Shown here piece by piece: positions 12,252 through 61,981 of a DNA stretch of 64,000 nt. The stretch comes from Caldicellulosiruptor naganoensis (GTDB taxonomy: Bacteria > Bacillota > Thermoanaerobacteria > Caldicellulosiruptorales > Caldicellulosiruptoraceae). Position numbers and translations under genes: made by a program. Where the stretch lies: assembly GCF_026914285.1 (NCBI RefSeq), contig NZ_CP113864.1, positions 1,891,001 to 1,955,000 on the forward strand. The letters run 5' to 3'. The notes beneath the pieces were generated by a model. The model had not been told where the DNA came from. It made no database searches and was given only the letters and a program-made list of their open reading frames with translations. How positions within the stretch are numbered: position 1 is the first letter of the stretch; each line of letters opens with the position of its first letter.

Positions 12252-13887
12252 TCAACATTTAAATTTTTTTTCCTCTTCTAAAACCTCTAAGAAAGCCTCA
12301 AATATCTCAGGGTCAAATTTTTTCCCCACATCTTCTTTCATTATCTTAAGTGCTTCCTCTTCAGAAAAGGCTTTTCTGTAGGGTCTGTCAGTTGAAAGTG
12401 CATCAAATACATCCGCTATTGCTATTATTTTGGACTCTATAGGAATTTTATCTCCTTTTATACCAAGTGGATAGCCACTTCCATCAATATTCTCATGGTG
12501 ATATAGAACAATCTCTTTTATACTATCAAAGTATTCAATATTTGAAAGAATGTTATAACCATCTAATGAATGCCTTTTGACAATAGAATATTCCTCATCA
12601 GTGAGCTTTCCTCTTTTGTTGAGAATATTTTCTGGCACTACAATTTTACCAATGTCGTGTAGGTATGCAGCTATTTCTAAATCAAATAAATTTATGTTAT
12701 ATCCTTTTTGATTGACAAGTTTTTGCCCAATCTCTTTACTGTACTTCATCACCCTTTCAGCATGTCCTTTTGTATATGGGTCTTTCATTTCAATTAAAGA
12801 TATAAGAAGTTTAATTGCTCCTTCAAAATTCCTCTTCTCTTTTTCAAAAAGTTCTCTTAAAAGCTCATCCTGCTTCTGCAAAATTGAAATTCTGTTTTTT
12901 ATTTCATTTGAAAAATAAGTGAGTATTACCTCTACATTTTCGAATTTTCCTTCTCTTTTTATAGCTGGTTTTGGAACTGTAGCTTTACCGTTTATTGTCG
13001 AAAACAGTTTTATTGCATATTCTTCAAGTTTAAGTATTTTCCTTGTCAAATATACTCCACTTGCAAATGATATAAACAAAGTTAGATGTGTTAACAGAAT
13101 AAAAATGATTAACAAAAGTTTTTCAAAACGTCTTTTTATCATAACAAGAGGCTTTTCGTCATGGTCTACAACTATACTGCCAAGAAAGTTATTATTTGTA
13201 TCGTATATGACAAGTTCGTTTCTGACTAACTTATTTGTGTGACTCAAAATTCCTTTAGGTTGAAAATAGGCCTTATTTACAACAAAAGGCTGAATTAAAG
13301 AGACAAACTCTTTTATCTCTCTTGCCAAAAAAAGAGCTCCAATTACTGGCTTGTTTAAATCTTTGTTATCTAAAACAGGAGAGCAAACAAAAGCATAGAC
13401 TCTCTCATTAAATTTCAAAAAACCTTTTTCAACAGGTATTAAATTGATATCATTATAACCATACTTTTTGTTTATTGTCTTTTGTACAACTTCAAACAAG
13501 TTTTCAGTAATTATATCCCTGAGAGGTTGATACCTTGAATACGATGCAATAATACCTCTCTTTTTGTAAAAACCAACAATAATTGAAAAGTCATATGGTT
13601 TTTGGCTTAACCAATTTGTCCAGTAAAACTCAATTGTTGTGAAATCATCGTTTAGAACTGCCTGGTAAATCTCATTCCAGATAGAATAGTCCTTTGCTAT
13701 GATTGTCATGTCATCAAATACTTTTTGTGTTATCCTCTCTAACGATTTTTTTGTTGATTTATGAAATAGTCATAAGTTATTTTCTCATACTGAGGTATTA
13801 CGTTTGTCATAACATACGCAGCCACAATTGACGAGGGTAAAATGCTATTAAGATTGTTACAATAAGTATTTTAATCCTTAGTTCCAC
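12252..13887 (-). pseudogene. CHASE4-like sensor / HD-GYP cyclic-di-GMP phosphodiesterase, two frameshifts
   Basis: The long frame (12252-13709) encodes an extracytoplasmic CHASE4-like segment, a membrane helix near 195-215 and a C-terminal HD-GYP domain (AAYLHDIGKI, HHENIDGSGYPLG). It starts too late for a sensor because the N-terminus is split over two more frames. A GTG at 13885-13887 behind GGATGTGG begins VELRIKILIVTILIA, the missing first membrane helix; a one-base deletion in a T4 run (13839-13842) shifts to LPSSIVAAYVMTN; a second one-base deletion in an A7 run (13746-13752) joins the main frame at KSLERITQKVFDD. HD-GYP enzymes hydrolyse cyclic-di-GMP. The truncated remainder could still be made from an internal start, but its topology would be altered. 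Confidence 0.8.
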
Positions 13888-21683: not shown

Positions 21684-21740
21684 TATGACAACTTTAGATT
21701 ATTATAAATTTTCAATGCATAAATTGTCAACAGAGAAAAA

Positions 21741-22508
21741 CTAAATATACTTCTTAATATGTCCAATTGCACTTTTCTCTATTCTTGACACTTGCGCTTG
21801 TGAAATACCAACAATAGTTGCTACTTCCATTTGTGTTTTGTCTTTGTAATATCTCAGGTATAAAATCTCTTTTTCGCGTTTTGTGAGCCTGCTCAAGGCA
21901 TCTTTCAATGATATCTCTTCAAGCCATACACTTTCGCAAGATTTTTGGTCACTGACTTGGTCAACCACATACATTGTATCAGTGCTATCTTGGAAGACTG
22001 GTTCATAGAGGGAAATAGGTTCTTGAATAGAGTCAAGAGCAAAAACAAGGTCTTCCTTTGATATAGAAAGCTCTTTGGCTATTTCTTCTAATGATGGTTC
22101 TCTATTATTTTGGCTTATAAACTTTTCTTTTATTTTAAGTGCCTTATAGGCTGTGTCTTTCAATGACATTGATATTCTCATTGTATTGTTGTCCCTAAGA
22201 TACCTTCTTATCTCCCCAATTATCATTGGCACTGCATATGTTGAAAATTTGACATTTTGGGATATGTCAAAGTTGTCAATAGCTTTGATAAGACCTATGC
22301 AACCAACCTGAAAAATGTCATCTAAATTTTCACCACGGTTTGCAAACTTTTGAACAACACTTAAGACAAGTCTCAAGTTACCTTCTATGAATTGTTTGCG
22401 CGCTTCTTTATCTCCATTTTTCATTCGCTTTAAAAGTTCAACTTTTTCCTCATGACTTAGTACAGGGAGAGTGGAAGTGTTAACCCCACAAATCTCTACT
22501 TTGTTCAA
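21741..22508 (-). CDS. sigG: Sporulation sigma factor G (forespore)
   Basis: 255-residue sigma-70 family factor. The N-terminus NKVEICGVNTSTLPVL is diagnostic of sigma-G; region 2 (FQVGCIGLIKAIDNFD, FSTYAVPMIIGEIRRYLRDN) and region 4 (KTQMEVATIVGISQAQVSRIEKSA) are intact. The best start is the TTG at 22506-22508, six bases after GGGGGAGGT; an earlier TTG would place that ribosome site inside the gene. Sigma-G drives late forespore genes in spore-formers. It follows sigE in the conserved order. That it is undamaged while sigE, spoIIGA and sigK are broken is notable. Confidence 0.93.
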   Translation of the reverse strand: MNKVEICGVNTSTLPVLSHEEKVELLKRMKNGDKEARKQFIEGNLRLVLSVVQKFANRGENLDDIFQVGCIGLIKAIDNFDISQNVKFSTYAVPMIIGEIRRYLRDNNTMRISMSLKDTAYKALKIKEKFISQNNREPSLEEIAKELSISKEDLVFALDSIQEPISLYEPVFQDSTDTMYVVDQVSDQKSCESVWLEEISLKDALSRLTKREKEILYLRYYKDKTQMEVATIVGISQAQVSRIEKSAIGHIKKYI

Positions 22509-22595
22509 AATACTACCTCCCCCTTTTTTCAAAAGTTTTGCTAAGGTTTATTATTTACTGTGAGGGAGGCAATTATTCTGAAAGTAATTTTCATC

Positions 22596-23329
22596 TTATA
22601 TAATCTTTGCCAGTTCTTTTTTAAGCCTTGTAATAATCTTTTTCTCAAGACGTGAGATGTAACTTTGAAAAATCCCCAGCAGTCAGCAACCTCTTTTTGT
22701 GTTTTTTCACCTTCATCTCCAAATCCGAATCTTAACTCAACAATTCTTTTCTCTCTCTTTGGAAGTTTTTGTATTGCTTTTAAGAGCGCTTCTTTTTCTA
22801 TATTGTTTTCAATACTGCTATAAACACCTTCTGTGTCAGTTCCCAAAACATCAGAAAGCAAAAGTTCATTCCCATTCCAATCAATATTCAATGGCTCGTC
22901 TATCGAAAGTTCAAGTTTTCTGTGAGAGTTTCTCCTTAAGAACATTAAAATCTCATTTTCAATACACTTTGACGCATACGTTGCAAGCTTGATATTTTTG
23001 TGAGGGTTATATGTATTTATTGCTTTAATCAGACCAATTGTTCCAATTGGTACCAAATCTTCAAGGTTGACCTTGGTATTTTCAAATTTCCTTGCTATAT
23101 ACACAACAAGTCTCAAATTTCTCTCAATAAGTACTTTTTTAAGTTCTTCCTTTCCTTCATAATGAATCTTATTCAAAACCTCAGTCTCTTCTTCTGGAGT
23201 AAGTGGAGGCGATAATGTTTCACATCCACCAACATAAAATAATTCAGTTATTTGTGAATCAGAAAGCTGAAAACCAAGCTTTTTTAAAAGGCCCAAAACA
23301 TAATTCAAAAGTCTTGATCTAAATTCCAT
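22596..23329 (-). pseudogene. sigE: Sporulation sigma factor E (mother cell), frameshifted in region 4
   Basis: The first 210 residues are a normal pro-sigma-E: an amphipathic pro-peptide, a processing site like FYVGGCE, RLVVYIARKFENTKVN and PLNIDWNGNELLLSDVLGTD. One base is missing near 22681: after EKTQKEVAD the frame reads CWGFFKV..., whereas the +1 frame gives the expected LGIFQSYISRLEKKIITRLK and stops at 22596. Unrepaired, translation runs on to 22541 with a nonsense tail and loses the DNA-binding helix that reads the -35 element. Start ATG behind AAGGAGGGG. Sigma-E is the first mother-cell sigma of sporulation. Confidence 0.9.
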
Positions 23330-23349: not shown

Positions 23350-24184
23350 TCAGATTAAATCAGGACCAAGCAAGGTTGAATACCTGCTTGATATCTTTTT
23401 GTCATATAGGGCAATTGCCACGTCCTTCTTTGTCCATGTACTTTTGTTGTCTGAGATGTAAAACTCATCAGGTATTACTCCAACTAAAACTCCATGTTCC
23501 TGTCCAATAGAGTTATAAGGAATGAGAACAATTCTGTTGCCAAGCTGTTTTTGAAGATTTTCTAAATTTTGAGCAGATATATCTGCTTGCTTACAATTTT
23601 CGTTCAATAAATCTTTCTCAATTATCACCACAGGTCTTCCTGAAAACGGCTCTCTTAGATTATTCCCTGTATCAACATAGGCTATGCAGTTGTATTCTGC
23701 GTCATTTATCTTGAATTTTATGTATCTCATAAGGGATTCTTTGTATTATTCTCTTGACTATTAGCTCATATGAGAGTTTAAGCACAATCAAAGAACAACC
23801 AAGAGCTATTAGTACATTTTTAAGTTTTATTTGAATACCAACCACAAAGGTATCTTTTGTTATATAATAGAGGAAAAACACCATACCACCAAACATTATT
23901 GTGACAAGATAAAAACTCAGGAGCTGTCTTAGAAAGACTAAAAATTCTTTTGGCCAAAAGGTAAGATACACAATTAATACAGACACAACCATCTTGCCAA
24001 ATACTGAATATAAGAACTGCATGAGAGGATAAAACTGTAAAAGAGAATAGATTGAGGCAATAATACTTCCTAAAAGAATTCTGAAACTATTAACGTTTGT
24101 TTTTGTAAAATATGCAGTTGTCAGCAAGATAAAGTAGTTGATAACCAGGTTTTCCAGAACATAAACGTCAGCATAAATAATCAT
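23350..24184 (-). pseudogene. spoIIGA: Pro-sigma-E processing protease SpoIIGA, frameshifted
   Basis: An N-terminal five-helix membrane domain (MIIYADVYVLENLVINYFIL start) ends in one frame at HKIQDK; the aspartic-protease domain continues in another frame from MRYIKFKINDAEYNCIAYVDTGNN (catalytic DTGN) to 23350. One extra base in AATCCCTTATG near 23731-23736 separates them. SpoIIGA cleaves the sigma-E pro-peptide on a forespore signal. The two halves overlap by 29 bases, so a split two-polypeptide protease is formally possible. It directly precedes sigE, as in all spore-formers. Confidence 0.87.
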
Positions 24185-24232: not shown

Positions 24233-24265
24233 ATTATACTTCTCTACAAGTAAAATTTATGTCAA
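24233..24265 (-). promoter_or_regulatory. spoIIG-type promoter with over-long spacer
   Basis: Minus strand: -35 TTGACA (24260-24265) and -10 TATAAT (24233-24238) are both perfect but 21 bases apart. Bacillus spoIIG is known for a sigma-A promoter with a 22-base spacer that needs Spo0A~P. The -35 region (TTTGACAT) also resembles a reversed Spo0A box (TTCGACA). Confidence 0.65.
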
Positions 24266-24326: not shown

Positions 24327-24348
24327 CCCCCTGCCATATTACAGGGGG
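24327..24348 (-). terminator. Rho-independent terminator of the dcw cluster after ftsZ
   Basis: Minus-strand stem CCCCCTG / CAGGGGG with an 8-nt loop and a TTTTTT tract, 26 bases past the ftsZ stop. Confidence 0.9.
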
Positions 24349-27350: not shown

Positions 27351-28587
27351 TCAGTGTATCCTTCTAATCTTAGCACCCAAGGCTGAATATTTCTCTTCTA
27401 TCCTTTCATATCCCCTGTCAATATGATCAACCCCTAAAAGCTCTGTTGTGCCTTCAGCACAAAGTCCTGCAATTAAAAGCGCCGCACCACCTCTTAAATC
27501 CTGTGCAAAGACCTGACATCCTCTTAGCTTTTCTACCCCATTTATAATGGCTATATCTTTTTCCACGTGTATTCTCGCGCCCATCTTATTGAGCTCTGGA
27601 ACATGTTTGAACCTGTTTTCGAATATTGTCTCCTTTATTATTGTCATACCCTCTGCTACAGAAAATACACTGCAAACTGGTGCCTGAAGGTCTGTTGGAA
27701 ACCCTGGATAGTAGTGTGTTGTTATTCTTTGATTCCCTTTTAGCCTTGCTCCTTTATTTTACACCCTGCACCTTTTAGAATGTGGAGTATAGAATCTAAA
27801 TGACGTGGCAAGACACCTTTTAATAATACTTCTCCACCACAAGCTGCAACTGCGCAGAGATATGTCCCAGTAACAATTCTATCAGGAATGACTACATGTT
27901 CAACTATGTTATTTTTTAGTTCTTTTACTCCTTCAATTTTAATTGTGTGTGTACCGGCACCTTTTATTCTGGCTCCAAGCTTGTTTAAAAAATGGCACAG
28001 ATCTGCTATCTCTGGCTCCTTTGCAGCGTTTTTTATTATAACCTCACCATCACAAAAAATTGAAGCAAGTATAATATTCTCGGTCGCTCCAACAGATGGT
28101 AGTGGCAAAAAATATTTCCCCGCTTTTTACAACATCACATCTGCATTCAATTGTGTTGTCATACTCAAAAACATCTATGCCAAGCTGCAAAAATGCAGAT
28201 ATATGAGGATCAATTGGTCTTTGACCTATCTCACACCCCCCCAGGATAGTTTGTAAGTCTTACTTTCCTAAACTTGCTCAAAATTGCTCCAAGAAATAAT
28301 ATACTTGAGCGCATCATCTTGGCATACTGTGGGGGTATTGTAAATTTGTCAACTGAAGCCGGATCAATAAAGGCAATATCGTTTTCAAATTCTGTTTTGC
28401 ATCCAAGATATTCAAGTATCCTAAGCGTGTGTCTTACATCAGCAATGTCAGGTACATTTTTAATTATAACCTGTCCTTTTGCTAAGATAGAGGCTGTCAA
28501 AATAGGAAGAGCAGCATTTTTTGATCCCTCAACATCAATTTCACCATTTAAAAACGTTGGACCGTCAATTATAAGTTTTTCTTCCAT
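27351..28587 (-). pseudogene. murA: UDP-GlcNAc 1-carboxyvinyltransferase, three frameshifts
   Basis: MurA makes the first committed peptidoglycan precursor, UDP-GlcNAc-enolpyruvate. Three consecutive segments in different frames together cover a full enzyme: 28587 to about 28236 (VEGSKNAALPILTASIL, EYLGCKTEF), a middle part with GATENIILASIFCDGEV, and 27647-27351 (RGGAALLIAGLCAEGTTEL). Lesions: an extra base in a C7 run on the plus strand (28236-28242), an extra base at CCCC (28118-28121), and a missing base near 27744-27749. Conceptually repaired, all three junctions read through smoothly (TNYPGGCEIGQ, KSGKYFLPLPSVG). Firmicutes often have two MurA paralogs, so loss of this one could be tolerated. 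Confidence 0.9.
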
Positions 28588-28650
28588 GTTTACACCTAAA
28601 TAGGTTCCATATGTGTCGCATATTATTTTATTCGTAAGCCTTGATATTTG

Positions 28651-61309: not shown

Positions 61310-61981
61310 TTAATAGCTTTCATTACAGCTCTTTTGTAATTCATTATACAACTTTTTCAAAGCTTTTTTCTCAATCCGTGACACATATGAACGGGATATT
61401 CCCAATAAATTTGCAACCTCCATCTAAGTTCTTTCTCTGCCATTTTTAAGCCCGTACCGAAGCTCAATTATGCGTTTTTCCCTCCCTTTTAAAATCTTGT
61501 CAAGCTTCCTCAATAAATTTTTTATCTATATCTTTATATCTACTTGATCATCTATATCATCTTGGTCACTTTGCAAAACATCTATAAGCAGAATTTCATT
61601 CCCATCTTTGTCACTGCCAATTGGATTTTCAAGCGAAACCTGAGATAAAAACTTTTTGTTTTGGCGAAGATACATCAATATCTCATTTTCAATACACTTT
61701 GCTGCATATGTTGAAAGTTTTGTATTCTTGTCTTGAGAATACGTCTCAATAGCTTTAATAAGGCCAATAGTCCCCACAGAAATAATATCATCTGTCAAAT
61801 TTGGAAAAGACAAGGTATACTTTTTAGCAATATGAGCAACAAGGCGCAGATTCTTTTCAATTAGAATGTTCCTTGCTTCAACACAGCCTTGCCACATCTT
61901 TTCTAAATACATTTCCTCTTCCTCATCAGTAAGAGGATGGGGGAACGAGTTTGCGTTTTCAATATAAAACATCTTGCACAT
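61310..61981 (-). pseudogene. sigK: Sporulation sigma factor K (mother cell), two in-frame amber codons
   Basis: A single frame of 224 codons reads through as sigma-K: FPHPLTDEEEEMYLEKM, NLRLVAHIAKKY, IISVGTIGLIKAIETYSQD, KLSTYAAKCIENEILMYLRQ, REKRIIELRYGLKNGRERT and MEVANLLGISRSYVSRIEKKA. It is cut by TAG at 61526-61528 and 61424-61426. In both places the family has Gln (IQIK and RTQ-xEVA), so each is a one-base CAG-to-TAG change. The product stops before region 4. The pro-sequence is also short. Start ATG at 61979-61981 close behind AGGAG. Sigma-K is the last mother-cell sigma. Confidence 0.9.

Follow-up and report, generated by a model that had tools for sequence, protein, structure and literature searches.

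Results

The spoIIG locus and its promoter element

The window, by which the whole 64,000-nucleotide stretch of Caldicellulosiruptor naganoensis DNA analysed in this study is meant, carries the spore genes spoIIGA, sigE and sigG on its minus strand, and sigK in another part (Table 1). Upstream of spoIIGA, a perfect TTGACA and a perfect TATAAT were read directly from the sequence at 24233-24265 of the minus strand with a gap of 21 bases, exactly as the original prediction had described them, and spoIIGA starts at 24184, which is 48 bases downstream of TATAAT. The element resembles spoIIG-type promoters in lying directly upstream of spoIIGA-sigE, in having a consensus-like -10 and in having a spacer of 21 to 22 rather than 16 to 18 bases.

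Table 1. Features of the spoIIG locus and of sigK in the window
Feature	Position	Strand	Remark
TTGACA, -35 place; GACA read as predicted downstream Spo0A box	24260..24265	-	exact sequence; conserved in genus and more widely
21-base spacer	24239..24259	-	length 21 in 11/11 genus genomes
TATAAT, -10 element	24233..24238	-	exact; 11/11 in genus
Terminator-like hairpin after ftsZ	24327..24348	-	separates ftsZ from spoIIG promoter
spoIIGA, 5' part	23702..24184	-	frame intact for 161 residues up to one-base insertion near 23747
spoIIGA, 3' part, in another frame	23350..23730	-	
sigE	22541..23329	-	C-terminal part out of frame after one-base loss near 22682
sigG, intact third gene of cluster	21741..22532	-	dN/dS 0.052 (215 codons compared)
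sigK	61313..61972	-	two in-frame TAG codons, Gln in relatives; protein otherwise near-identical

At the ordinary sigma-A distance of 16-18 bases from the -10, the hexamers are ATAAAT, CATAAA and ACATAA, and no -35 hexamer was found among them. Moreover, a standard scan for promoters whose spacers are 16-18 bases long gave no match at this site on the minus strand, its single match on that strand lying inside spoIIGA. Throughout the genome, TGACA and TATAAT were found paired at a distance of 15 to 24 bases in 103 cases; among the 100 listed, the spacer peaked at 17 bases (32 pairs), and 21 bases occurred in 7, a flat background like that from 19 to 24. Therefore, 21 bases is not a general sigma-A gap in this genome. 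Since one-mismatch pairs of the present layout numbered 2 in the window, against a shuffled mean of 1.0 with 27 of 100 shuffles reaching 2, the hexamer pair alone is no proof of a promoter, and the proof lies in conservation.

Other promoter-like sites were also observed. Near-identical sequences of the TGACAG...GTGCATAATCTTGATATAAT type with a 17-base gap occur in the genome (C1, near 15520, 40670, 52206, 55029, 213711 and 2462169) and resemble a repeated element. At 21698-21730 of the window, a second TTGACA stands, in the better reading, 18 bases from a near TATAAT; this ordinary-looking site precedes an acyl-CoA ligase-like gene.

Broken spore genes in this genome and across the genus

The original prediction had placed two broken genes behind the promoter, and the frames of spoIIGA and sigE are indeed lost relative to intact relatives, with one frame-breaking difference per gene (a single-base insertion in spoIIGA and a single-base loss in sigE). 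In addition, spoIIE of this genome is spread over several frames, and a spoVB-family gene, whose family match falls under the curated cut-off, is frameshifted. Three multi-frame genes were counted in this window; five comparisons between relatives, over about 60 kb, gave none among 51, 49, 48, 48 and 46 orthologs; in-frame stops numbered 0 to 4 there, start differences included.

Against the relative G003, dN/dS was 0.121 for spoIIGA, 0.047 for sigE (with a second value of 0.063), 0.070 for sigK and 0.168 for spoIIE, and the comparison of G003 with G011, another relative, gave 0.110, 0.083 and 0.061 for the first three genes. The median of 48 window orthologs was 0.079, with a 10-90% range of 0.043-0.149. 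These ratios are at a functional level; the genes were therefore under selection for nearly their whole history and were lost late. The single lesion in each of spoIIGA and sigE, the functional dN/dS and the two nonsense codons of sigK all agree with the recent gene death that had been proposed, and by their sequences spoIIGA, sigE, sigK and spoIIE look truly and recently dead.

Disrupted frames were also seen in genes of other kinds. The murA gene of the dcw cluster (27351-28632) lies in three frames, and a second murA of 429 aa is intact elsewhere in the genome. The gene at 12267-13887 is disrupted at its 5' end, which lies in other frames, and its relative matches HD-GYP type phosphodiesterases.

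Among 12 genomes of the genus, lesions of spore genes were found in further members. In G008, neither profile nor protein gave a spoIIGA match, nothing matched at sigE, sigG or sigK level, and spoIIE was partial. In G009, a frame change occurs close to the end of sigE, and in G002 (locus L009) two frames, recombinase-like and transposase-like, form an insertion between spoIIGA and sigE. Inactivation of the operon would belong to a wider decay that has affected spore genes of the genus repeatedly, and sporulation has presumably been lost in this strain. In the excerpts available of an earlier report, Caldicellulosiruptor is described as non-sporing while carrying many spore genes (PMC3533761).

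Conservation of the element within and beyond the genus

A spoIIGA match was present in 11 of the 12 genus genomes, all but G008, and the spacer of exactly 21 bases and the -10 TATAAT were found in all 11, with TTGACA as the first hexamer in nine and CTGACA in two. The original prediction had named the alignment of relatives' spoIIGA upstream regions as its check, and a lack of conservation as the outcome that would speak against it; the alignment returned both elements at the same spacer in every member with the gene. Over a 50-base stretch that begins just above the box and ends 12 bases past the -10, 45/50 and 44/50 positions were identical to the nearest two relatives, and in the 100 bases above the promoter core only 56/104 and 58/104 were identical to the same two.

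Beyond the genus, 249 Bacillota genomes were drawn, with a spoIIGA match in 216, and 91 upstream regions were compared (30 best-match loci, 60 others, mostly one per family and picked blind to their promoters, and one locus of the sister genus; G052 was excluded where its contig ends). When one mismatch was allowed, a TGACA-TATAAT pair lying no more than 250 bases from the gene had a spacer of 21 bases in 62/91 regions and of 22 in 6/91, and each of the other spacers from 12 to 30 bases occurred in at most 4 of 91; 20 shuffles gave at most 1 at spacer 21. When both T were ignored, the pattern was found at 21 bases in 58/91, at 22 in 6/91 and at neither in 27/91. For 26 regions without a strict match, re-scoring with a profile placed the best score at 21 bases in 13 and elsewhere in 13. 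The upstream region of C. naganoensis itself scored 19.3 with the profile, and one set of 100 letter shuffles reached 18.7.

In a named set of 80 loci, which is redundant, being mostly from Paenibacillus, Brevibacillus and other Bacilli, the spacer was 21 bases in 67, 22 in nine and neither in four. Examples with 22 bases are Bacillus infantis, Peribacillus muralis and one Brevibacillus. Thus, 21 bases is the norm and 22 a minority form in these samples. The proposed likeness to the Bacillus spoIIG promoter stands as far as the long spacer is concerned, which recurs widely, but the 22 bases of that promoter represent the rarer form.

Nature of the -35 hexamer

A logo was made from 64 sequences (62 of other genera and two of the genus), in which G, A, C and A occurred in 58, 64, 64 and 64 sequences, counts that are inflated by the use of TGACA in the selection. 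The first T position was random (A22 C7 G18 T17 of 64). In the 58 matches of the pattern blind to both T, the first position was A, T, G or C in 17, 17, 17 and 7, and the second was T, C or A in 46, 7 and 5; in the Paenibacillus-rich named loci, the second position was A in 48/67. Among columns free of selection, a C 10 bases above the C of GACA was present in 56/64 and the adjoining A in 48/64, and the two together occurred in 45/64 logo sequences and in 72/76 matches of the named set. A run of T 3 to 5 bases after GACA, likewise free of selection, was found in 57, 55 and 45 of 64; the first base of this run is A in the present promoter.

A reading of the first hexamer as a sigma-A -35 was considered and rejected, as its leading T is random outside the genus and GACA alone is fixed. 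A Spo0A box is the better reading because one would expect a sigma -35 to retain its leading T, and a tandem Spo0A site to retain GACA and its 10-base repeat. The 0A box reads TTCGACA or TGTCGAA, depending on orientation, and tandem boxes stand 10 bases apart. The conserved GACA with C(A) 10 bases upstream fits predicted tandem Spo0A boxes, and the predicted box over the -35 place of C. naganoensis, TTTGACA, differs from TTCGACA by one letter. Of the proposal that Spo0A~P binds over the -35, the long gap over a putative Spo0A site remains the best reading, but the hexamer itself is no conserved sigma-A -35.

Within the genus, the upstream CA (10 bases up, -6/-5) was present in 0/11 members, and no tandem second half-site was found 10 bases upstream. 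The promoter, which had been proposed to be preserved, is therefore not wholly so: its core is intact, but judged by these alignments the genus is without the upstream one of the two tandem Spo0A half-sites. Putative Spo0A binding in this genus may thus be weak or follow another arrangement.

The spoIIE promoter and Spo0A

The other operon driven by Spo0A and sigma-A is spoIIE. Upstream of Bacillota spoIIE, the same layout was found at 21 bases in 17/30 loci, at 22 in 1/30 and at 16 in 5/30; of the five matches at 16 bases, two overlapped a 21-base match, one lay elsewhere in a locus that also had the 21-base form, and two (L136 and L137) were separate. In the genus, the 21-base element was found upstream of spoIIE in 0/11, and the best profile scores there were weak, up to 8.7, and at another spacer. 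These regions (L166-L176) hold at best weak ACAACA-21-TA(G/A)AAT-like remnants, which may be a decayed promoter.

An open frame for Spo0A is present in 12/12 genus genomes, and 103 residues of the DNA-binding domain could be aligned to two Spo0A chains of solved structure, 1lq1_A and 1fc3_A. TGTCGAA is given as the core Spo0A box in excerpts of one study (PMC3485338), and according to work cited in the available part of another, the steps on which Spo0A~P acts at spoIIG are those that follow the binding of polymerase (PMC12090719).

Discussion

The element upstream of spoIIGA in C. naganoensis is very probably the promoter of spoIIG, of the sigma-A type that Spo0A activates, with TATAAT as the -10 and, 21 bases away, a predicted Spo0A box at the -35 place, left with its core intact before an operon that was recently inactivated. 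The sequence, its conservation, the gene lesions and the intact Spo0A gene are shown by the present data, and Spo0A binding and transcription are inferred. In B. subtilis, Spo0A~P over the -35 place repositions sigma. By the same scheme, sigma-A polymerase would sit on and read the -10, Spo0A~P on the box at the -35 place would hold the upstream part of sigma and so replace the normal -35 contact, and the 21-base gap would keep the promoter off without Spo0A. The rigid gap may be the signature of this arrangement, common to spoIIE.

The same stretch could be an ordinary sigma-A promoter whose true -35 lies some 17 bases away from the -10, TTGACA being accidental, a view to which the perfect -10 and the 17-base centre of this genome's sigma-A promoters would be congenial. 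However, the three hexamers that stand at 16-18 bases and the scan of these spacers, which lists none here, argue against it, as does the maintenance of GACA at 21 bases across the genus and beyond, and we regard this reading as very improbable. Even less credit is due to a chance pair without any role; about one one-mismatch pair is expected per window, but the same spacer at the same place before spoIIGA recurs in every genus member with the gene and in most of the two wider samples.

A different doubt concerns the genes, which might be broken by assembly errors in an operon that is functional. Consistent with such errors, spoIIGA and sigE are each off by a single base, and the dcw-cluster murA, which is usually needed, is in three frames as well. 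A census against G003 covered 132 orthologs within 460 kb of the C. naganoensis genome; 121 were intact and 11 were flagged as broken, and some of these 11 are unconnected with spores, which is also in line with errors. In the reverse search, 4 of 146 were flagged, one being sigE and the others short or antisense-looking frames. Nevertheless, the two in-frame TAG codons of sigK are substitutions and not indels, the second murA is intact, and separate damage was found in the relatives G008, G009 and G002. Moreover, of 12 broken genes (the 11 and sigE), five were assigned to sporulation from their family match or their position, a count that includes the spoIIE stretch, which was retrieved deliberately, and the spoVB match under the curated cut-off. 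The suspicion of assembly indels that the broken murA had raised was largely rejected on the sigK codons and the second murA; single indels could still be errors, and a functional operon behind such errors is unlikely. With the genes taken as broken, the spoIIG promoter looks to be driving dead genes now.

On balance, we favour the broader view that spoIIG and spoIIE of the Bacillota share one composite element, consisting of CA, 10 bases, GACA, a T run and a rigid 21 bases to TATAAT or TATACT, which would replace the sigma -35, with 22 bases as a minority form. The genus would then have lost the upstream half-site and be losing its spore genes one by one, with the core promoter in place. No paper on a 21-base spoIIG rule was found in the open-licence literature that was searched. 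The kind of promoter was already known, and the value added is the phylum-wide 21-base rule together with a clear case of ongoing spore loss. A textbook oddity of one species becomes a measurable rule, in which distance and motif are fixed over the whole phylum; Spo0A-driven promoters become findable by sequence, and the spacer is the thing to mutate. Furthermore, the genus offers a dated series of spore loss, from the intact operon through single lesions and an insertion to the gene being gone.

Among known systems, the spoIIG promoter of B. subtilis, a sigma-A promoter activated by Spo0A~P with a spacer of 22 bases, is like the present one in serving spoIIGA-sigE and in having perfect-looking hexamers, an over-long gap and, over the -35 place, a Spo0A box, which in the present promoter is a predicted one. 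It differs in that the spacer here is 21 bases, the genus has no CA 10 bases upstream and the downstream genes are broken; B. subtilis itself lies outside the sequence samples. The spoIIE promoter of B. subtilis, also read by sigma-A and activated by Spo0A, has the same spacer of 21 bases between GACA and TATAAT, but it serves another gene, and its layout was not found before spoIIE in this genus. According to the excerpts available of the C. difficile study, Spo0A binds upstream of both spoIIGA and spoIIE of that species with low affinity (PMC3485338). The spoIIGA upstream region of C. difficile, bound by Spo0A without a perfect 0A box, is comparable to the putative Spo0A target of C. naganoensis, and the low affinity of this binding sets it apart (PMC3485338).
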